64,000 bases of DNA from Paracoccaceae bacterium. GTDB taxonomy: Bacteria > Pseudomonadota > Alphaproteobacteria > Rhodobacterales > Rhodobacteraceae. The translations under genes were made by a program, and so were the position numbers. How positions within the stretch are numbered: position 1 is the stretch's first letter; every line of letters starts with the position of its first letter. The DNA is taken from positions 38,664 to 102,663 of the forward strand of contig JAAXIY010000043.1 in assembly GCA_012270125.1 (NCBI GenBank), written 5' to 3'. The notes beneath the pieces were generated by a model that saw only the letters and a list, made by a program, of their open reading frames with translations, had not been told where the DNA came from and searched no databases. This document shows positions 6,997 through 31,064 of this stretch, in pieces.

Positions 6997-7491
6997 ATGG
7001 CAGAAGAAAAACAACCGGTACAACCCAACACCAAAGTTTTGGCGCAATTTATAAGGGATCTGTCATTCGAAAATATTTTGGCTCAGAGGGGATTGGATAG
7101 TAATTCTGCTCCAGATGTAAAAGTAAGGGTTAACCTTGATGCAAAGAAGAGAAAAACAGAAAGCCAATACGAGGTTTTAATTAAGTTATCAGTCGACTCG
7201 TCTGCCAAATCTGAAAAAGCAAATGACGGTGACGACGCCAAACTTTTTATATTGGAGATAGAATACGGTGGAATATTTGAAATAACGGGTGTTCCAGAAG
7301 ACCAGATCCACCCGTACTTGATGATCGAATGCCCTAGAATATTATTTCCTTATTTAAGACGAATTGTTGGTGATGTAACACGTGATGGAGGTTTTCCTCC
7401 TTTAAACCTTGAGCAGATAAATTTTCTAGCACTATATCAAAACGAAATTGCTAGGCGCCAAGCAGAAGCTGAAAAGGCGACAAAAAACTAA
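6997..7491 (+). CDS. secB: Protein-export chaperone SecB
   Basis: SecB keeps preproteins unfolded in the cytosol and hands them to SecA. The 164-residue protein shows YIRDLSFEN-type sequence (FIRDLSFENILAQRG, residues 18-32), a central beta-rich segment with LFILEIEYGGIFEI, and the SecA-contact/C-terminal helix region PRILFPYLRRIVGDVTRDGGFPPL near residue 122, with LEQINFLALY following. TGGAG upstream of the ATG is the ribosome site. Its stop codon overlaps the stop of the convergent dnaQ gene by 4 nt, leaving no room for a separate terminator. Confidence 0.97.
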   Translation: MAEEKQPVQPNTKVLAQFIRDLSFENILAQRGLDSNSAPDVKVRVNLDAKKRKTESQYEVLIKLSVDSSAKSEKANDGDDAKLFILEIEYGGIFEITGVPEDQIHPYLMIECPRILFPYLRRIVGDVTRDGGFPPLNLEQINFLALYQNEIARRQAEAEKATKN

Positions 7492-8186
7492 TTTTTTGTT
7501 TCTAATTTATTCCAAACAGCATTTTCTCCAAGTTGTTGTACAAAAGCTGCATGCGCGTCTTTTTCTTCTTCAGTTAGACGAACCTTTAGTGGTTTAGACC
7601 TTTTCAAGCTTTGCTTTTTTTGATCTATTTTCTTATCCTCTATATTATTAATATCGGAAAGACCAAAATCAGGTTGACGACCACCTATTAGTTCGAGGTA
7701 GACCTCTGCTAGAATTTCTGAATCCAATAAAGCACCGTGAAGCGTTCTTGATGAGTTATCGATATTAAATCGCCGACATAATGCATCTAAAGAGGCCGGT
7801 GAGCCTGGAAAATTTTTCCTAGCTATCGCCAAGGTATCTATTGCCATACTATTTGGCAGTTCTGCTTTTCTCACCAACGCTAGCTCAGAATTAATGAACT
7901 TCATGTCAAAAGAAGCGTTGTGTATAACTAGTTTTGAACCTTCAATGAATTCCAAAAATTCATCGACAATTTGAGAGAACACGGGTTTATCTTTTAAGAA
8001 ATCTTCCGTCAAACCATGAACGGCCTGTGCTTCGTCCGGCATATTTCGTTCTGGGTTCAAATATTTATGAAAAGTCTTACCTGTAGGCAGATGGTTCCAA
8101 AGCTCTACGGCCCCTATTTCCACTATTCTGTCACCTGCCCCTGGATCTAAGCCTGTAGTCTCTGTGTCTAAAACTATTTCACGCAT
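7488..8186 (-). CDS. dnaQ: DNA polymerase III epsilon subunit (3'-5' proofreading exonuclease)
   Basis: This 232-residue DEDDh exonuclease has ExoI DTETTGLDPGAGDRIVEIGA at residues 5-24, ExoII HNASFDMKFI near 93 and ExoIII HGALLDSEILAEVY near 150. It provides proofreading in the polymerase III core. The C-terminal tail carries the polymerase-contact region in this family. An in-frame GTG lies three codons upstream, but the ATG at 8186 matches the family start MREIVLDTETTG. It overlaps the end of coaE by 8 nt and is last in the leftward group maf-aroE-coaE-dnaQ. Confidence 0.96.
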   Translation of the reverse strand: MREIVLDTETTGLDPGAGDRIVEIGAVELWNHLPTGKTFHKYLNPERNMPDEAQAVHGLTEDFLKDKPVFSQIVDEFLEFIEGSKLVIHNASFDMKFINSELALVRKAELPNSMAIDTLAIARKNFPGSPASLDALCRRFNIDNSSRTLHGALLDSEILAEVYLELIGGRQPDFGLSDINNIEDKKIDQKKQSLKRSKPLKVRLTEEEKDAHAAFVQQLGENAVWNKLETKN

Positions 8187-8769
8187 TAAAATCACTTTCT
8201 ATTTTTTTTATAATATTCAAAACTTGTTTTTCGGTGTCTCGCTTATTGAAAGTCTCTATTACAAAATCAGCTAATTTACTTTTTTCCTCTATAGGCATTT
8301 GCTGATCAAGGATCTTTTTTATCTCTATATATTCCATTGTTTTTCGTGATTTTATTCTGTCCATCTGAATAGTCTTAGACACGTATACACATGCAACTTT
8401 ATCCATTAACTTATTCGCTCCTGTTTCAAACAGTAACGGTATATCAAAAACATTTATTTTAAATTTTGTCGTATCGATAAAATGTTTTCTATCTTCTGAA
8501 ACTAAAGGGTGAACTATGCTTTCCAGAGTTTTTATCTGAGTAAAGTCTTTTTTTAATATTTTTTTTAGCTCTTCTCTGCTTACCGAACCTCCTTTTACTG
8601 CGCCCGGGAAATATTTTTGAATTGGTTTCACTGCGGCGCCACCTTTGCTGTATAATCTGTGTACCGCTTTGTCTGCGTCCCAAACTCCACAATTATGCTT
8701 TTGAAATAATAAAGCTGTGCTTGTTTTTCCCATTCCCATGGATCCTGTAAGCCCAAGCTTGAATATCAT
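8179..8769 (-). CDS. coaE: Dephospho-CoA kinase
   Basis: CoaE phosphorylates dephospho-CoA in the last step of coenzyme A synthesis. The 196-residue P-loop kinase has GLTGSMGMGKTSTALLF (Walker A, residues 6-22), the substrate region VWDADKAVHRLY near 29, and VFDIPLLFETG near 110, which is typical of CoaE. It shares 4 nt with the end of aroE and 8 nt with the start of dnaQ, so all three are translationally coupled. Confidence 0.96.
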   Translation of the reverse strand: MIFKLGLTGSMGMGKTSTALLFQKHNCGVWDADKAVHRLYSKGGAAVKPIQKYFPGAVKGGSVSREELKKILKKDFTQIKTLESIVHPLVSEDRKHFIDTTKFKINVFDIPLLFETGANKLMDKVACVYVSKTIQMDRIKSRKTMEYIEIKKILDQQMPIEEKSKLADFVIETFNKRDTEKQVLNIIKKIESDFNA

Positions 8770-9599
8770 TGTAATAATAACTCTCTTAGATCTTCTGTGA
8801 TTAGTGGAGTTTTACCAAACCATGCCTCAAAACCTGGCACACCTTGATGAATTAACATACCTAAACCGTCAACGAATCTTATTTTTCTATTCTTGGCGAT
8901 TTTTAATAGGTTTGTTTCTAAAGGGGTATAAACAAGATCTGAAATAAGCGCTTTTTCAGATATGGCTTCTGGATTGATGTTAATCGCTGTTTCATCATTC
9001 ATGCCTAAAGACGTTGTGTTTATAATATTGTTACATGTAGCAACTATTTCGTTCAGTGAACTCCACTTTTCAACCCTTACTCTTTTATCATATTTATCTC
9101 TTAATTCTTGTGCTCTTTCTATAGTTCTATTCAACACAATAACGTCGCTTGACCCTTGCTCCAATAAAGCTGCAACAACAGCTCTACTAGCTCCTCCTGC
9201 TCCTAAAACTAATGATGAGCCTCTTCCTGGAATCCAATCAGTGTATTTACTTTTAATATTATTTATAAATCCATAACCGTCCGTATTGTCCGCATAGATA
9301 CTTCCCGCTTCTGTAAAAGTAAGTGTGTTTGCTGCGCCAATGTCTTGTGCTCTTTTAGAAGATTGGTGCGCAATATCTAAAGCCTTCACTTTATGTGGAA
9401 TAGTAACATTAGCTCCAGAAAAACCCATATCTTTTAAAGAATATATAGTTTCTTCTAGCTTATTATCTTCTACTTTTATTGGTATATAATAACCTTCAAT
9501 CTTGTTTTGTTTTAACCAATAGTTATGCATTCGGGGGGATTTTGAATGTGATATGGGATTTCCTAAAACGGCAGCTAACAGAGGCTTTTTATTACTCAT
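8766..9599 (-). CDS. aroE: Shikimate dehydrogenase
   Basis: AroE reduces 3-dehydroshikimate with NADPH in aromatic amino-acid synthesis. In 277 residues the shikimate-binding SHSKSPRMHNYWL (near 17), catalytic-lysine NVTIPHKVKAL (near 64), nucleotide-binding VLGAGGASRAVVAALLEQG (near 131), NTTSLGM and the C-terminal DGLGMLIHQG are all present. It overlaps maf by 8 nt upstream and coaE by 4 nt downstream. With aroC at about 30 kb, two steps of the shikimate pathway are in this window. Confidence 0.97.
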   Translation of the reverse strand: MSNKKPLLAAVLGNPISHSKSPRMHNYWLKQNKIEGYYIPIKVEDNKLEETIYSLKDMGFSGANVTIPHKVKALDIAHQSSKRAQDIGAANTLTFTEAGSIYADNTDGYGFINNIKSKYTDWIPGRGSSLVLGAGGASRAVVAALLEQGSSDVIVLNRTIERAQELRDKYDKRVRVEKWSSLNEIVATCNNIINTTSLGMNDETAININPEAISEKALISDLVYTPLETNLLKIAKNRKIRFVDGLGMLIHQGVPGFEAWFGKTPLITEDLRELLLQ

Positions 9600-10203
9600 C
9601 GATTGAGCCCTTTGTGCTTAGATAATTATTTATTTCTATTAAAGGCATTCCTAAAATAGAAAAAAAATCACCTGTAATTTTTGAAAACAAACGGCTACCT
9701 TCCTCTTCAATTTTGTATCCACCTACACTTTCTTTAATGCTTTCCCAATTCCTATTCACATATTTTGTAACATAATCCTCTTTATAATGGTTGGAATATA
9801 GTTCTGCTTTACCAACAAACCGCCATACAGGTTTACCATTTTCACATATAACAGCGCCTGAATATGCCACATGTTTTTTTCCTGACATTGTCAGTATCTG
9901 ATCTATCGCTTTTTCTTTACTGGCTGGCTTTTTTAGAATTGAACCTTCTAGTTCTAAAATTTGATCACAGCCAATAACTAAATTAGCGGGGTTCATCGAG
10001 GAAACTTTAGTGGCTTTTAGTTCCGCCAACGCATCGGCTATGTCTCTAGCTTTGTATTTTTCCATCAGCAGAGAAGCTTTAACTGACTCTTCATCTACAT
10101 TTGGCTTTACACACTTAACTGATACATTTGCTTTTTCAAATAATTGTTTTCTTATTGAAGACGAAGAAGCTAATAAAAGATCATTTACCATAAATAAAAC
10201 CAT
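9592..10203 (-). CDS. maf: Maf-family nucleotide pyrophosphatase
   Basis: Maf/YhdE/YceF proteins hydrolyse non-canonical or particular nucleoside triphosphates to monophosphates and have been linked to septum control. The protein shows LLLASSSSIRKQLFEKA (substrate loop with the conserved Arg), VIGCDQILELEG (metal Asp) and KKPASKEKAIDQI; KHVAYSGAVI follows. The ATG at 10203 or the one at 10191 (MVNDLLLASSSS) could be the start. It is the first gene of the leftward maf-aroE-coaE-dnaQ set and directly borders the putative origin. The same gene order borders the Caulobacter origin region, as I recall it. Confidence 0.93.
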   Translation of the reverse strand: MVLFMVNDLLLASSSSIRKQLFEKANVSVKCVKPNVDEESVKASLLMEKYKARDIADALAELKATKVSSMNPANLVIGCDQILELEGSILKKPASKEKAIDQILTMSGKKHVAYSGAVICENGKPVWRFVGKAELYSNHYKEDYVTKYVNRNWESIKESVGGYKIEEEGSRLFSKITGDFFSILGMPLIEINNYLSTKGSIDE

Positions 10204-10506
10204 GTATATTTTAGTGGATAAAAATTGTTTAGTTTTTGCTTAACTGTTTATTACAAATTTAAAAATTAAAATTTTTATCTTTTGATTAACTTAGGAACAC
10301 TTTACTTATTTCTTATCCTTTGTGGAAATGAATTTTATAAATTTTCCACACACTGTTAGCTTTTGTTTTTTTATATTATTTTTCAATATCTTACTAGGTT
10401 TTTAAACTGTGTAATACTATGGATAAATTTTAATCCACAGGTTATACTGACGCTACAACAATAAACTACTTTTTATATAAATCTTTTATTATTATATAGA
10501 GGCCGA
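10204..10506. other. Putative chromosomal replication origin (oriC)
   Basis: This 303-nt stretch without a gene lies between leftward maf and rightward hemJ and is extremely AT-rich. It has DnaA-box-like 9-mers: 10213-10221 (reverse strand TTATCCACT), 10321-10329 (reverse ATTTCCACA), 10342-10350 (TTTTCCACA, fits TTWTNCACA exactly), 10418-10426 (reverse TTATCCATA) and 10431-10439 (TAATCCACA). The others each differ by one base from the consensus. One near-CtrA-type pair, TTAA-N7-TTAC, lies at 10240-10254. Flanking genes diverge from it on both sides, and parA, parB and two parS sites lie 3-7 kb away. The origin call is inference from context plus boxes. It must also hold the promoters for maf and hemJ. 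Confidence 0.7.
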
Positions 10507-10968
10507 ATGCTTAATTATTTTAGTGATATACTTTCTACTTTGTACCCTTGGGTGAAAGGTTTTCATATAATAGCTGTTATATCCTGGATGGCTGGCTTGT
10601 TTTATTTGCCACGCTTATTTGTATATCATGTAGAAAAAGGTTCTGGAAAAGAAGATCTAGATAGTATTTTTCAATTAATGGAACTTAAACTCCTAAGAAT
10701 TATAATGAACCCTGCTATGATAATAAGTTGGATTTGTGGTATCTTATTATACTTAACACCTGGAATAGTTGATTGGTCTTTATATTGGCCTTGGCTTAAA
10801 TTATTTGGAATAATAGCAATGACCTGGTTTCATATGTGGTTAGCAAAAAGACGGAAAATTTTTATACAAGGAAATAATCTTCTAACAGGTAAGCAGTACA
10901 GATTAATGAATGAAGTTCCCACTGTTTTAATGGTAGTGATTGTATTTTCAGTAGTTGTAAAATTTTAA
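10507..10968 (+). CDS. hemJ: Protoporphyrinogen IX oxidase, HemJ type
   Basis: HemJ is the membrane-bound oxidase for protoporphyrinogen IX in many alphaproteobacteria. The 153-residue protein has four hydrophobic segments and the family signature WVKGFHIIAVISWMAGLFYL followed by PRLFVYH (residues 15-41), including the conserved histidine and the LPRLFVYH stretch. A second conserved part is PWLKLFGIIAMTWFHMWL near 97. GAGG sits 6 nt before the ATG. It is the first gene on the rightward side of the putative origin. Other haem genes in the window are hemW, hemD and hemY-like. Confidence 0.92.
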   Translation: MLNYFSDILSTLYPWVKGFHIIAVISWMAGLFYLPRLFVYHVEKGSGKEDLDSIFQLMELKLLRIIMNPAMIISWICGILLYLTPGIVDWSLYWPWLKLFGIIAMTWFHMWLAKRRKIFIQGNNLLTGKQYRLMNEVPTVLMVVIVFSVVVKF

Positions 10969-10971
10969 AGA

Positions 10972-11000
10972 AGTTGACTCAACTAAGCCATCGGTATACG
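10972..11000 (+). promoter_or_regulatory. Candidate rho promoter with overlapping 13-nt palindrome
   Basis: TTGACT at 10974-10979 and TATACG at 10995-11000 resemble -35 and -10 elements, though with a short 15-nt spacer. The -35 lies in the palindrome AGTTGACTCAACT (10972-10984), so it may be an operator. It precedes rho by about 70 nt. This is weak evidence. Confidence 0.3.
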
Positions 11001-11066
11001 TAATCGCTGCAACATTGTCCTATGTTGGTTTTCATAAAGTTTTAACAATTAATAACAGGTATCAGT

Positions 11067-12338
11067 ATGTCTTCTACGCGCCTAAATTTATCTGATCTTA
11101 AAGTTAAGAGCCCTAAAGATCTTCTTTCTATGGCTGAAGACTTAGAAATAGAAAATGCATCAACTATGCGCAAGGGTGAAATGATGTTTCAAATCTTGCG
11201 TGAGAGAGCAGATGAAGGCTGGGAAATTGCTGGAGATGGTGTTCTAGAAGTTTTGCAAGATGGATTTGGCTTTCTGAGATCACCGGAAGCAAATTATCTT
11301 CCGGGACCAGATGATATTTATGTCTCTCCTGATATGATTAGAAAATATTCTTTAAGAACTGGGGATACAATAGAGGGATTAATTAAATCACCAGAAGATA
11401 ATGAAAGATATTTTGCTCTGATAGAAGCGCACCAAATTAATTTTCAAGATCCAGATAAAGCGAAACATAAAATAGCTTTTGATAACTTAACACCGCTCTA
11501 TCCAGATGAGCGTCTTATAATGGAAATTGAAGACCCAACAGTTAAAGACAAATCTGCAAGAGTTATAGATTTAGTCGCTCCTATTGGTAAGGGTCAACGG
11601 TCACTTATAGTAGCGCCGCCCAGGACAGGTAAGACCGTTATTTTACAAAATATAGCTCATAGCATCGAGCAAAATCATCCAGAGTGTTATCTTATTGTTT
11701 TACTAATTGATGAAAGACCGGAAGAAGTTACAGATATGCAGAGATCTGTTAAGGGAGAGGTTATCTCGTCTACTTTTGATGAACCGGCAGCCAGGCATGT
11801 AGCTGTGTCAGAAATGGTTATTGAAAAAGCAAAGCGGCTCGTTGAACATAAGAGAGATGTTGTTATTCTTTTGGACTCTATTACTCGTTTAGGAAGAGCT
11901 TTCAATACAGTAATACCTTCATCTGGAAAAGTCTTAACAGGTGGTGTTGATGCCAATGCTCTTCAAAGGCCAAAAAGATTTTTCGGAGCAGCAAGGAATA
12001 TAGAAGAAGGCGGATCATTAACTATCATTTCTACAGCGTTAATAGATACGGGCAGCCGAATGGATGAGGTTATTTTTGAGGAATTTAAAGGCACGGGTAA
12101 TAGCGAGATAGTATTAGATAGAAAAGTTGCGGACAAAAGGGTATTTCCAGCAATTGATATTTTAAAGTCTGGTACAAGAAAAGAAGATCTGCTTATTGAT
12201 AAAATAGATTTACAAAAAACGTTTGTATTACGACGTATTTTGAATCCAATGGGTACAACTGATGGAATAGAATTTCTTCTATCAAAATTAAAACAAACTA
12301 AGACAAATTCCGAATTTTTTGACTCTATGAATACCTAA
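11067..12338 (+). CDS. rho: Transcription termination factor Rho
   Basis: Rho is the hexameric RNA-dependent ATPase that terminates transcription at C-rich unstructured RNA. The 423-residue protein has the N-terminal Rho_N helical domain ([20 protein letters not shown]), the RNA-binding cold-shock-like domain with [23 protein letters not shown] near residue 66, Walker A APPRTGKT near 184, [16 protein letters not shown] near 208 and the Q/R-loop [22 protein letters not shown] near 291. Its leader is 98 nt. Many convergent gene pairs in this window have no room for intrinsic terminators, which suits reliance on Rho. Confidence 0.98.
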
Positions 12339-13645: not shown

Positions 13646-15520
13646 ATGTTTCACGTGAAACAATTTGATGTACTCGTGGTTGGAGGTGGACACGCTGGTA
13701 GTGAGGCAGCAGCAGCTTCGTCAAGGATGGGTGCTAGAACTGCGCTCGTCACTCTGAAGGCCTCTGATCTTGGTGTAATGTCTTGTAATCCTGCTATAGG
13801 AGGCCTTGGAAAAGGCCATTTGGTTCGTGAAATTGATGCTCTAGATGGGATTATGGCTCGATCAGCAGACGAGGCAGGTATTCAATTTAGGCTATTAAAT
13901 AGAAAAAAGGGCCCCGCTGTTCAGGGTCCGCGGGTTCAGGCCGACCGTTTGTTATATCAAAGCTCAATAAAAAAAGCCTTAAGCTCGATTGAAAACTTAT
14001 CCATACTAGAAGGCGAGGTTGTAGACCTTGTTGGCTCTCAAGCTAAGGTTAAAGGCGTGCTTTTAGCTGATGGCTCCGAAATTTTGGCAAAATCTACTAT
14101 TATAACCACAGGAACGTTTCTTCGAGGAAAGGTCTACATAGGAGAGGTTTCCTACTCGGCTGGTCGTATGGGATCTAACCCTTCATTAAAACTTGCAGAA
14201 AAGATAGAGGGTTTTGGCTTAAGGTTGGGCAGACTAAAAACGGGAACCCCTCCAAGACTAAATGGAAAGTCTATAAATTGGGAAGATCTGGAAAGCCAGC
14301 CTGGCGATATAGAGCCAACAATGTTTTCTTTTTTGTCCCAAAAACCAACAGCAGAGCAAATCTCATGTGGGATAACGTTTACTAATGAAAAGACACATGA
14401 GATTATAGAAAAAAACCTATCAAAATCAGCAATGTATGGAGGGCATATCGATGGCGTAGGTCCTAGATATTGTCCATCTATAGAAGATAAAATAGTTCGA
14501 TTTAGGGATAAGAGCTCACATCAAGTATTTTTAGAACCGGAAGGTCTTTCAGTAAACACTATATATCCTAATGGAATTTCTACATCCCTTCCTGAGAAAA
14601 TACAGGAACAATATGTACGCTCTATAAAAGGATTAGAGAATGTTGAGATCTTACAACCAGGCTACGCAATAGAATATGATTATGTTGATCCTCGGTCATT
14701 ATCGCAAACCTTAAGTGTTAATGGTGTTTCTGGCCTCTATTTGGCAGGTCAAATCAATGGGACAACAGGATATGAAGAAGCAGCAGCCCAAGGGTTGGTT
14801 GCCGGTTTGAATGCAGCAGCAGCTTCAGCCGATGCAGACACAATTACTTTCTCAAGATCAGATAGTTATATAGGTGTTATGCTAGACGACCTGATTTCTA
14901 AGGGAGTAAGCGAGCCATATAGAATGTTTACTTCTAGAGCAGAGTTCAGGCTTTCGCTACGTGCAGATAATGCGGACCAACGATTGACTCCGAAAGGTAT
15001 AGAGATAGGCTGTGTCTCTGCAGAGCGGCGGAAAGCTTTTTTAGAAAAAGCAGAGAAAATAGAAGAATGTAATAAAATTCTTTCTGAAAAAGAGTTTAGC
15101 CCAAACCAATTACTATCTCAGGGTATTTCGGTCAGCCAAGATGGAAATAAAAGAAACTTGAAGCAAGTGTTAGCTTTTCCAAATATCACTTTTGATAATA
15201 TAACAGTATTTGATCCTAGGCTGATACATATAGATAAAGAAATCCAGCAGCAAGCTCATAGAGATGCTCTATATTCCAACTATATTGACAGGCAAAAGAA
15301 AGACATTGAGGCTATCAAAAGAGATGAGGCTATAGAGATTCCAAATAACTTTGACTATTTGTCAATGTCTGGTTTATCGAATGAACTTACAAATAAACTA
15401 ATTTACCAAAAACCAAAAAATATAGCACAAGCTTCTCGTATAGAGGGAATGACACCAGCGGCTCTTTTTTTGATATTATCAAAAGTTAAACAGAGTCAGA
15501 ACCAAACCAAGGCCGGATGA
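13646..15520 (+). CDS. mnmG: tRNA uridine-5-carboxymethylaminomethyl modification enzyme, FAD-binding
   Basis: MnmG (GidA) is the FAD- and folate-using partner of MnmE. The 624-residue protein opens [20 protein letters not shown], giving the Rossmann FAD motif [10 protein letters not shown]. It then has [22 protein letters not shown] near 50, [12 protein letters not shown] near 155, [12 protein letters not shown] near 197 and the C-terminal tRNA-binding helical region. The first codons are made from a perfect parS site. The start is 3 nt after mnmE and the end overlaps rsmG by 4 nt. Confidence 0.98.
13647..13662. other. parS centromere-like site 1
   Basis: TGTTTCACGTGAAACA is the exact 16-bp ParB-binding palindrome known from Bacillus and most other bacteria. 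It is embedded in codons 1-6 of mnmG (MFHVKQ). It lies 3.3 kb right of the putative origin and 3.3 kb left of parB. It is the expected loading site for the ParB encoded here. Confidence 0.95.
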
Positions 15521-16131
15521 GTGACGATGTTTTAATAGATGTTTCACGTGAAACAATGGCGCTTCTAAAACAGCTTCGAACACTTGTTGAAAAGTGGAAC
15601 AAAAGTATAAATTTAATATCGAAAAGCACCGTGCCAGATATGTGGAACCGCCACATTATAGATTCTGCGCAGATCTTTTATGCTAGAAAAAAAAGCTTTA
15701 AAAAATGGTTGGACATGGGATCTGGCGCTGGTTTTCCTGGGCTGGTTGTTGCAATTCTTGCTCAAGACAAAAATATCAATGGAGAAATAGTGTTAGTTGA
15801 AAGTGACAGAAGAAAATGTGCTTTCCTTAGTACTGTTAAGCGTGAGTTGAACCTTAAAATATCTATTATAAACAACAGGATAGAGGTCTGTAACAAGCAA
15901 AATGCGGATGTTGTTTCAGCAAGAGCTTTAGCTGATTTAGCAAGTCTTTTGGAGCTATCATTTAATCATGCTAGTGATAATGCTTCGCTTATATTTGCAA
16001 AGGGAAAGTCTTGGCAAGAAGAGTTGGTTGCAGCACAGAAAGCTTGGAACTTTAGTTGGGAAGCTGTTACCAGTATAACTGATTCAAAGTCAGTAGTTTT
16101 GAAAATAGGAGAGCTTTCGCGTGCCAAGTAG
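15517..16131 (+). CDS. rsmG: 16S rRNA (guanine-527-N7)-methyltransferase
   Basis: RsmG (GidB) methylates G527 of 16S rRNA with SAM. The 204-residue Rossmann methyltransferase has [12 protein letters not shown] near 28, [12 protein letters not shown] near 42, the SAM loop [20 protein letters not shown] near 65, [18 protein letters not shown] near 90 and [13 protein letters not shown] near 128. Codons 9-13 are formed from the second parS. It overlaps mnmG by 4 nt, and its stop lies inside the start region of parA. Confidence 0.96.
15540..15555. other. parS centromere-like site 2
   Basis: This is a second exact TGTTTCACGTGAAACA, within the start of rsmG where it encodes part of DVSRET. That is a different frame from the first site, so the DNA sequence and not the peptide is conserved. 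It lies 1.9 kb from the first copy and 0.6 kb upstream of parA. Confidence 0.95.
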
Positions 16132-16915
16132 TGGATCCAAAGCTGCAAAAATAATCTCAGTGACGAACCAAAAAGGTGGAGTTGGTAAAACAACTACAAC
16201 TATCAACTTAGCGGCAGCGCTTTCACAATTAAAAAAGAAAGTTCTTATTATAGATTTGGACCCACAGGGGAACGCATCCACTGGTTTGGGGGTAGAGGTC
16301 GAAGACCGAGAACTATCAACATATGAATTTTTGGTTGAAGGAGCTCCTTTAGAAAAAGTTGCGATGGAAACAGAAATCTCTGGTTTAAGTATTGTTCCAG
16401 CAACAATAGACCTGAGCTCAGCTGATATAGATCTGATATCAAACGAAAAAAGAAGTCACTTGTTGCATGAAGCATTGCGAAAAAAGCAAGAAAACAAGAA
16501 AAAATATGACTTCATACTGATTGATTGCCCACCATCTTTAAATATTTTAACGGTAAATGCGATGGTAGCGTCTCATTCTGTTTTGATACCATTACAGAGT
16601 GAGTTTTTTGCACTGGAAGGGCTTTCCCAACTCTTGCTGACTGTAAAAGAGGTGCGTCAGACTGCAAATGAGAACCTTCGAGTTGAAGGGATAGTTTTAA
16701 CCATGTTTGATGGAAGAAATAATTTATCTAAACAGGTGGAAGCTGATGCTAGGAGCAATCTAAAAGAACTAGTTTTTGAAACGATCATTCCACGAAATGT
16801 ACGGGTGAGTGAAGCGCCTTCATATTCAATGCCCGTTTTAACTTACGATCCTTCCTCAAAGGGTTCAAAAGCGTATATGGATTTGGCCAAAGAGTTATTA
16901 GCTAATAATTCTTGA
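16121..16915 (+). CDS. parA: Chromosome partitioning ATPase ParA
   Basis: ParA is the Walker ATPase that moves ParB-parS complexes and segregates the origin. In 264 residues it has the deviant Walker A KGGVGKTTTTINLAAAL near residue 18, DLDPQGNASTGLG near 46 and DCPPSLNILTVNAMVAS near 138. The start is GTG at 16121, supported by AGGAGAG at 16107-16113 with 7-nt spacing. The GTG lies inside the last codons of rsmG. parB follows 12 nt after it. It is chromosomal-type (Soj-like), not a plasmid ParA, by its place beside mnmG and rsmG. Confidence 0.97.
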   Translation: MPSSGSKAAKIISVTNQKGGVGKTTTTINLAAALSQLKKKVLIIDLDPQGNASTGLGVEVEDRELSTYEFLVEGAPLEKVAMETEISGLSIVPATIDLSSADIDLISNEKRSHLLHEALRKKQENKKKYDFILIDCPPSLNILTVNAMVASHSVLIPLQSEFFALEGLSQLLLTVKEVRQTANENLRVEGIVLTMFDGRNNLSKQVEADARSNLKELVFETIIPRNVRVSEAPSYSMPVLTYDPSSKGSKAYMDLAKELLANNS

Positions 16916-16927
16916 TAGGAGATTTTG

Positions 16928-17824
16928 ATGGTAGAAAGAAAAGGTAAATCACGAGGCCTTGGAAGAGGATTATCGTCTTTAATGGGTGATATTAATAACG
17001 ATCCCATAAGTAGTAGCGCAAACTCAGAAAATCAGACACTTGAGAAGCTCGTACCGGTTGAAAAAATATATCCAAATCCAAATCAGCCTAGGAAAACGTT
17101 TCAAGAAGAAAAACTTATCGAATTGGCTAATTCGATAAAAACAAAAGGGGTAGTACAACCTCTGATTGTAAGAAAAAAGCAAGGAACCAAAGAAAGCTTT
17201 GAAATTGTTGCAGGAGAGCGCCGCTGGCGTGCGGCTCAAAGAGCACAAATTCATGAATTACCAGTCATTGTAAGAGAGTTTACTGATACAGAGGTTCTAG
17301 AAATAGCCATAATTGAAAATGTACAAAGGGCTGATTTAAATCCTGTAGAAGAGGCTCTTGGATATAAGAATTTAATGGATAATTTTAATCATACCCAAGA
17401 AGGTCTTTCTAAAGAAATTGGGAAAAGCAGGAGCCACATAGCGAATTTGCTAAGACTGCTTAATCTTCCAGCAGAGGTACAAGATTTTCTAATTTCAGGA
17501 AAATTGACTGCCGGACATGCCCGGGCCTTGGTAACATGTGATAACCCTCTGGCGTTAGCAAAACAGATAATTTCACAAGGCCTTTCAGTTAGAGATGCTG
17601 AACTTTTAGCTAAGAAAGAGAGTCTAAAAGAAGCAAAAACCAAGAATAAGACAAATGAAAAACCAGCTGATACAATTATCTTAGAGTCTGATCTGTCTGC
17701 AGCATTAAAAATGAAGGTGTCAATCAATCATGAAGAGGGCAAAGAAAAAGGTTTACTTTCAATAACTTATAAGACTCTGGATGAGCTCGATCGCATTTGT
17801 GAGAAACTTTTAAAGAGTACTTAA
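16928..17824 (+). CDS. parB: Chromosome partitioning protein ParB
   Basis: ParB binds parS, slides as a CTP-dependent clamp and recruits ParA. In 298 residues it shows GLGRGLSSLMGD at the N-terminus, IYPNPNQPRKTFQEEKLIEL near 47, the CTPase motif GERRWRAAQRA near 98, a helix-turn-helix (LSKEIGKSRSHIANLLRLL near 160) and a C-terminal dimerisation segment. The ATG at 16928 has AGGAG 6 nt upstream; an in-frame TTG directly before it is rejected. It ends 9 nt from the convergent hemW. Confidence 0.97.
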   Translation: MVERKGKSRGLGRGLSSLMGDINNDPISSSANSENQTLEKLVPVEKIYPNPNQPRKTFQEEKLIELANSIKTKGVVQPLIVRKKQGTKESFEIVAGERRWRAAQRAQIHELPVIVREFTDTEVLEIAIIENVQRADLNPVEEALGYKNLMDNFNHTQEGLSKEIGKSRSHIANLLRLLNLPAEVQDFLISGKLTAGHARALVTCDNPLALAKQIISQGLSVRDAELLAKKESLKEAKTKNKTNEKPADTIILESDLSAALKMKVSINHEEGKEKGLLSITYKTLDELDRICEKLLKST

Positions 17825-30786: not shown

Positions 30787-30935
30787 CTTTGTCCACTCTC
30801 TAGTATAACCATCCTGATACTGCCTCTTCTCGCGCTGGGCAAGTGTTACGCAAAAGTAAATTTTATTCTGTTAACATAAATTTAAAAAACCTTAATTTTT
30901 ATTGACCAAACCAAAATTTGTGATAATCGGTAAGC

Positions 30936-31064
30936 TACCTCGGGGAGCCTTACACTGGCTGAGATGCGCAAGCGAACCCGTAGAACCTGAACCGGATAAC
31001 GCCGGCGGAGGGAAGGATAAACTTATATAAGTTTGAACTTACTCTCCCCGAAAAAGTGAGGAGA
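30936..31064 (+). ncRNA. TPP riboswitch (THI element) with expression platform
   Basis: The aptamer spans about 30936-31019. It contains GGGGAGCC at 30942-30949, GGCTGAGATG at 30957-30966, ACCCGTAGAACCTGAACCGG and the GCCGGCGGAGGGAAGGATA end, matching the THI-box conserved core. P1 is short (TACCT with AGGATA, one bulge). Downstream lie a palindromic hairpin at 31019-31034 (AAACTTATATAAGTTT), CTCCCCGA at 31044-31051 (perfectly complementary to TCGGGGAG at 30940-30947), and TCTCC at 31043-31047, which can pair with GGAGA at 31060-31064 over the ribosome site. This layout suggests translational control of thiB, off with thiamine pyrophosphate. Confidence 0.93.

Follow-up and report, generated by a model that had tools for sequence, protein, structure and literature searches.

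We propose that the 303-bp gap between a maf-like gene and hemJ (positions 10204–10506) is the chromosomal replication origin, a reading to which we give a probability of about 96% on evidence that is sequence inference throughout and comes in large part from draft genomes. The gap lies in a window of 64,000 nucleotides, the whole stretch of DNA analysed (38664–102663 of contig C49, 135,509 bp; the genome itself is an 85-contig draft of 2.16 Mb). It combines the features by which an oriC is recognised, namely (i) a cluster of DnaA boxes beyond chance, (ii) easily melted AT-rich DNA and (iii) the cumulative GC-skew minimum of the contig. The strongest evidence is a natural deletion: congeners that lack hemJ retain the gap, its boxes 1 and 5 and, in most cases, box 4. 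An earlier note had suggested a candidate origin between maf and hemJ, and the suggestion is now supported by the box cluster, the GC-skew minimum, the skew of relatives and the hemJ-less congeners. The location of the origin is well supported by gene order and skew, while DnaA binding, unwinding and initiation at this site are predicted. The origin is an ordinary one for its class. With its position fixed in a genome that is not closed, replichores, gene dosage and coverage-based growth-rate estimates can be set for the lineage.

Setting, DnaA boxes and skew of the maf–hemJ gap

The gap is AT-rich (22.1% GC) and contains no ORF of at least 100 aa, in agreement with its earlier description as a gene-free stretch of 303 nt. 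Its surroundings are as follows.

7488–8195, minus strand: dnaQ (NCBIfam cut-off passed)
8179–8769, minus strand: coaE (NCBIfam cut-off passed)
8766–9599, minus strand: aroE (NCBIfam cut-off passed)
9592–10203, minus strand: maf-like gene, left flank (NCBIfam match, below curated cut-offs)
10204–10506, no strand: putative oriC, the maf–hemJ intergenic region (box density, skew minimum, low stability, kept in hemJ-less congeners)
10507–10968, plus strand: hemJ, right flank (NCBIfam cut-off passed)
11067–12338, plus strand: rho (NCBIfam cut-off passed)
13647–13662, no strand: parS, perfect palindrome TGTTTCACGTGAAACA (motif scan)
15540–15555, no strand: parS, perfect palindrome TGTTTCACGTGAAACA (motif scan)
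16121–16915, plus strand: parA (family matches below cut-offs; position ahead of parB)
16925–17824, plus strand: parB (NCBIfam cut-off passed)

Leftward run dnaQ, coaE, aroE and the maf-like gene, and rightward hemJ, rho, mnmE, mnmG, rsmG, the parA-like gene and parB (rsmG is above its NCBIfam cut-off, mnmE and mnmG above Pfam cut-offs). Coding direction does diverge from the gap, as had been noted: within 10 kb, the plus-strand share of coding bases is 74% to the right and 17% to the left. This coding-strand bias vanishes by 38 kb (0.50 against 0.52), and since it is only local here, genes that lie head-on to the fork further right are no strong objection to an origin. The two parS sites previously placed within 5.3 kb are perfect, at 13647 and 15540; they lie 3.1 and 5.0 kb to the right of the gap. 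Chance would give 0.13 matches with up to two mismatches. The dnaA gene, followed by dnaN, is found ~55 kb to the right of the gap (at about 66 kb). It encodes a full-length DnaA whose domain IV signature GGRDHTTV was aligned to the DnaA of PDB 8btg. Elsewhere in the window, a TPP riboswitch at 30931–31030 on the plus strand (RF00059, 65.6 bits) is the sole Rfam match above cut-off.

Scored against the consensus TTATCCACA, the gap contains the following sites.

10213–10221, minus strand: DnaA box 1, TTATCCACT, one mismatch (motif scan; conserved in congeners)
10313–10318, plus strand: half-box TTATCC (alignment; identical in the window and six congeners)
10321–10329, minus strand: weak DnaA-box-like site 2, ATTTCCACA, two mismatches (motif scan)
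10342–10350, plus strand: DnaA box 3, TTTTCCACA, one mismatch (motif scan)
10418–10426, minus strand: DnaA box 4, TTATCCATA, one mismatch, left arm of an inverted pair with box 5 (motif scan)
10431–10439, plus strand: DnaA box 5, TAATCCACA, one mismatch, nearest the presumed unwinding element (motif scan, alignments)

All five box-like 9-mers reported earlier were recovered at their positions, four with one mismatch and the one at 10321 with two. The four one-mismatch boxes compare with a mean of 0.074 and a maximum of 2 in 500 first-order Markov copies, and only 8 of 13,521 overlapping 303-bp segments of the contig, all starting at 10138–10208, hold as many; the gap is the densest one-mismatch DnaA-box cluster on the 135.5-kb contig. 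The fifth box adds little, because a count of five with up to two mismatches is also reached by 5 of the 500 Markov copies and at eight other places on the contig. An exact TTATCCACA is absent from the gap, the sole exact copy on the contig being at 40566.

Over the 135.5-kb contig, the cumulative GC skew reaches its minimum at window position 10547, the turn near the gap that the earlier note had predicted for the whole replicon; the replicon here is in 85 contigs, and relatives stand in for it (see below). Since gene direction confounds skew, four-fold degenerate sites were split by strand. From left to right across the locus, their GC skew rises from -0.185 to +0.019 in plus-strand genes and from +0.008 to +0.188 in minus-strand genes, and the four-fold minimum falls at 11269 after correction for orientation. 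The uncorrected four-fold skew (minimum at -4033) and the contig's keto (3241) and purine (74821) skews have their minima away from the gap and were rejected as pointers to it. By nearest-neighbour energies, duplex stability on the contig is lowest, at lengths of 200 and 300 bp, in the stretches that begin at 10205 and 10201, respectively, and the gap ranks second on the contig for low stability at 50 and 100 bp.

The gap in relatives and in genomes without hemJ

The 80 closest HemJ loci come mostly from Rhodobacteraceae or genera of that family. In 88 of 110 hemJ loci, our own included, maf is the divergent neighbour of hemJ (the two collected locus sets may overlap and duplicates were kept). 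The intervening gap measures 288–434 bp in 86 of these 88 and about 1.2 kb in the other two because a Kinase/PPPase gene (PF03618) sits between; we take this family to be COG1806/DUF299. Of the other 22 loci, 11 belong to other families, one (L026) is of the same family and has hemE in that place, three (L029, L060 and L076) are cut by a contig end and seven are Paracoccus loci without a maf match there. After our own locus (L009) and the two with an extra gene in the gap (L018 and L024) were dropped, the mean count of one-mismatch boxes in the gaps of 85 relatives is 2.34; equally long pieces of these loci average 0.064 and shuffled gaps 0.035. Only one gap of the 85 has none. The skew of relatives was read from chromosome-length contigs of Pseudooceanicola spongiae (G061, from L056), Rhodobacteraceae bacterium QY30 (G062, from L099) and a same-family genome (G018), in 20 stretches of ~10 kb per contig spaced ~170–220 kb apart, a sampling that brackets the locus without pinpointing it. 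When each contig is oriented so that hemJ reads rightward, the stretches to the left of the locus have negative GC skew in 8/10, 9/10 and 8/10 cases, respectively (25/30 in total), and those to its right have positive skew in 8/10, 10/10 and 10/10 (28/30).

In six same-genus genomes (G001, G002, G004, G005, G014 and G015), maf faces rho across 443–493 bp with no hemJ between them, and the first ~290 bp of this stretch align with the gap of the window. The gap is therefore retained where no hemJ promoter role is possible. At box 1, all six carry the exact TTATCCACA; box 5 is found within one mismatch in all six and box 4 in five, while boxes 2 and 3 are never within one mismatch in these six (box 3 has a mean identity of 0.65 in the alignment). 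Taken jointly, the five box positions are conserved at 0.774 against 0.586 for the rest of the gap, a value equalled by none of 299 circular shifts; box 1 and the 4–5 pair reach 0.839, matched by 2 of 299. In a further genome (G003), a decayed hemJ fragment remains at the locus. Sister species that lack hemJ reveal the part of the locus that selection maintains.

A role limited to promoting the divergent maf and hemJ, with DnaA acting there as a transcription factor, would fit the gap's position between these two genes, and the gap probably holds promoters as well. As a full account we consider this very improbable: hemJ is absent from the six same-genus genomes, in which the gap persists with boxes 1 and 5 in register, a two-gene promoter cannot account for the skew pivot in relatives, and other lineages have the gap beside other right-edge genes (hemE or hemH). 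In many bacteria oriC adjoins dnaA, and the true origin could be sought elsewhere, most plausibly beside dnaA–dnaN at about 66 kb, in the same half of the contig as the purine skew minimum at 74821. However, the region from 63.5 to 69.5 kb holds four one-mismatch boxes that are scattered and form no cluster, and the cumulative GC skew is -517 at 66337, well above the minimum of -1006. A skew minimum beside dnaA–dnaN, which the earlier note had named as one observation that would tell against its proposal, is not what was found, the GC-skew minimum being at 10,547 and dnaA–dnaN at ~66 kb. We thus rejected dnaA–dnaN as the origin, for it has no box cluster and is not the GC-skew minimum, and we regard an origin outside the maf–hemJ gap as highly unlikely.

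Several further observations concern the hemJ locus of the genus. Most genomes of the genus yielded no hemJ (L180–L187 and L200–L206). Of 16 examined, many of them incomplete, 4 have PF03653 above cut-off and one more (G003) has a decayed copy; in the same 16, the ferrochelatase HemH is found in 13 and HemY is above cut-off in none. In four same-genus drafts, contigs break in or beside the origin–hemJ–rho region (G008:C2/C29, G009:C18, G010:C79/C12 and G011:C63); AT-richness or differences among strains at the origin may be the cause. The stretch upstream of rho (10969–11066) carries TTGACTCAA and a CAACA...TGTTG inverted repeat, kept in hemJ-less congeners, and in the congeners sequence without recognisable hemJ lies between the origin part and this stretch. 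An RNA structure between hemJ and rho was rejected, as 190 of 200 shuffles fold as well.

A presumed unwinding element

To the right of box 5 lies the last feature of the gap.

10453–10500, plus strand: presumed unwinding element, CTA followed by a degenerate, DnaA-trio-like T/A-rich run (predicted)

The boxes and this run suggest how the origin may work. DnaA would bind boxes spread over the gap, with the firmest contacts at box 1, the leftmost, and at the inverted pair 4–5 close to hemJ. A DnaA filament starting at box 5 would cross the 13-nt spacer, continue along the complement of the CTA-led run (10453–10500) and stretch this run open. The helicase could then be loaded at the opened run and two forks depart in opposite directions, and ParB bound to the two parS sites 3–5 kb rightward would move the new origins apart.

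According to excerpts from the description of the basal unwinding system (PMC8287927), 3'-GAT-5' is the most frequent DnaA-trio beside the box and spacers peak at 10–13 bp. The gap resembles that system in having a box, a 13-bp spacer and CTA, which is 3'-GAT-5' as first trio: CTA starts exactly 13 nt after box 5, so that a DnaA box, a spacer of at most 16 bp and a first 3'-GAT-5' trio are all present, in a pattern that was chosen post hoc. This pattern, TAATCCACA-N13-CTA, chosen after seeing the alignment, has one exact match in the assembly; at one mismatch there are 10 matches against 16 for a backwards control. Across relatives, the box nearest hemJ was defined as the best of 80 positions (at most one mismatch in 73 of 88 rows), a choice that favours good matches, and the distance from it to the first CTA is 13 nt in 31 of the 73 good-box rows, our own and two congeners included. 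A looser signature, itself defined with the alignment in view, is present in 44 of 85 gaps; none of the reverse strands carries it, and among 2150 control pieces 2 do.

A second likeness, as far as the same excerpts (PMC8287927) go, is that 11 same-genus sequences continue after CTA with [CT]T[AT] units in phase. These make up 38 of 88 units, and the other two phases give 18 and 10; single-base shuffles average 18.3 and none of 2000 equals the observed count, the 11 sequences being related. The likeness ends in the window's own later units, which are degenerate after the first CTA, and in the family, where 31 rows show no phase preference for [CT]T[AT] (38, 46 and 39 of 186) and place CAT in phase with CTA instead (40 of 186 vs 2 and 1 in the other phases). 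The window does not show three consecutive trios in phase with its CTA; among the 11 same-genus sequences, 4 have three [CT]T[AT] units in a row from the first CTA. In T-rich DNA, chance readily produces the published loose trio pattern NAN. Its counterpart NTN gave a weak signal in the genus, with 48 of 88 units in phase against a shuffle mean of 37.8 (14 of 2000 shuffles reach it), and in the family it was stronger in a neighbouring phase (110 of 186 vs 52); hence it was not used. A Rhodobacteraceae variant of the element, in which CTA stands at a fixed distance of 13 nt from a DnaA box and is followed by in-phase CAT units (3'-GTA-5' on the bound strand) replacing the 3'-GAT-5' trios, with CTA/CTT-type trios in the AT-rich genus of the window, is a tentative and rather doubtful reading. 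The family alignment condenses the Rhodobacteraceae unwinding element into a short description that can be tested.

Relation to known origins

Origins of 101 closed Rhodobacteraceae genomes have been predicted with Ori-Finder, according to excerpts from PMC6699656, and such predictions are collected in DoriC (excerpts from PMC10225481); we therefore make no claim to a first description. As in that same-family set (PMC6699656, in excerpt), the GC-disparity minimum, DnaA boxes and closeness to parAB are found here on the contig, whereas the genome, unlike those of the set, is unclosed. The main text of PMC6699656 contains no occurrence of hemE/heme, hemJ or maf, and none of the titles and abstract openings returned by the literature search names the maf–hemJ gap as the Rhodobacteraceae origin.

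Excerpts from PMC1914354 place the Caulobacter crescentus and Rickettsia origin between hemE and COG1806, with five DnaA boxes in Caulobacter. The gap of the window apparently is the same chromosomal locus, because COG1806 and hemE adjoin the gap in more distantly related genomes. Flanking gene order is shared with the COG1806/hemE-type locus, the genes on the left being common. The earlier remark that the Caulobacter origin has the same maf/aroE/coaE/dnaQ side fits both these excerpts (PMC1914354) and the gene order of class relatives, the latter read from the relatives' own sequences. In contrast to the Caulobacter/Rickettsia locus as given there (PMC1914354), the COG1806 gene and hemE flank neither edge here: PF03618 (COG1806) has no match in our assembly and hemE is on contig C39, away from the gap. 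The gap also differs from a Caulobacter-type origin in the exact CtrA motif TTAA-N7-TTAA, of which there is none in 10204–10506 (five in the window vs a chance mean of 6.42); a CtrA-regulated origin was set aside on this exact-motif basis.

Among 14 upstream stretches from same-family and same-class genomes, a COG1806-type (Kinase/PPPase) gene lies between maf and the gap in 10, with hemE, hemH or hemJ on the other side (hemE in L222). Class relatives such as L227 have the order dnaQ-coaE-aroE-maf-Kinase/PPPase gene, gap, hemE-hemH-hemJ, the families of the query proteins being assigned by Pfam. Three stretches (L229, L230 and L231) show no COG1806-type gene, and hemE forms their right edge; their densest 400 bp contain 8, 7 and 2 one-mismatch boxes, respectively. 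L225, L226 and L227 have the expected gene order and only one box in the densest 400 bp, and L232 has a different neighbourhood. Finally, a contig filed under a Verrucomicrobia MAG (L047, JAAAPI010000392.1) carries a Rhodobacteraceae-like locus with a HemJ 68% identical to the query, and is probably mis-binned.
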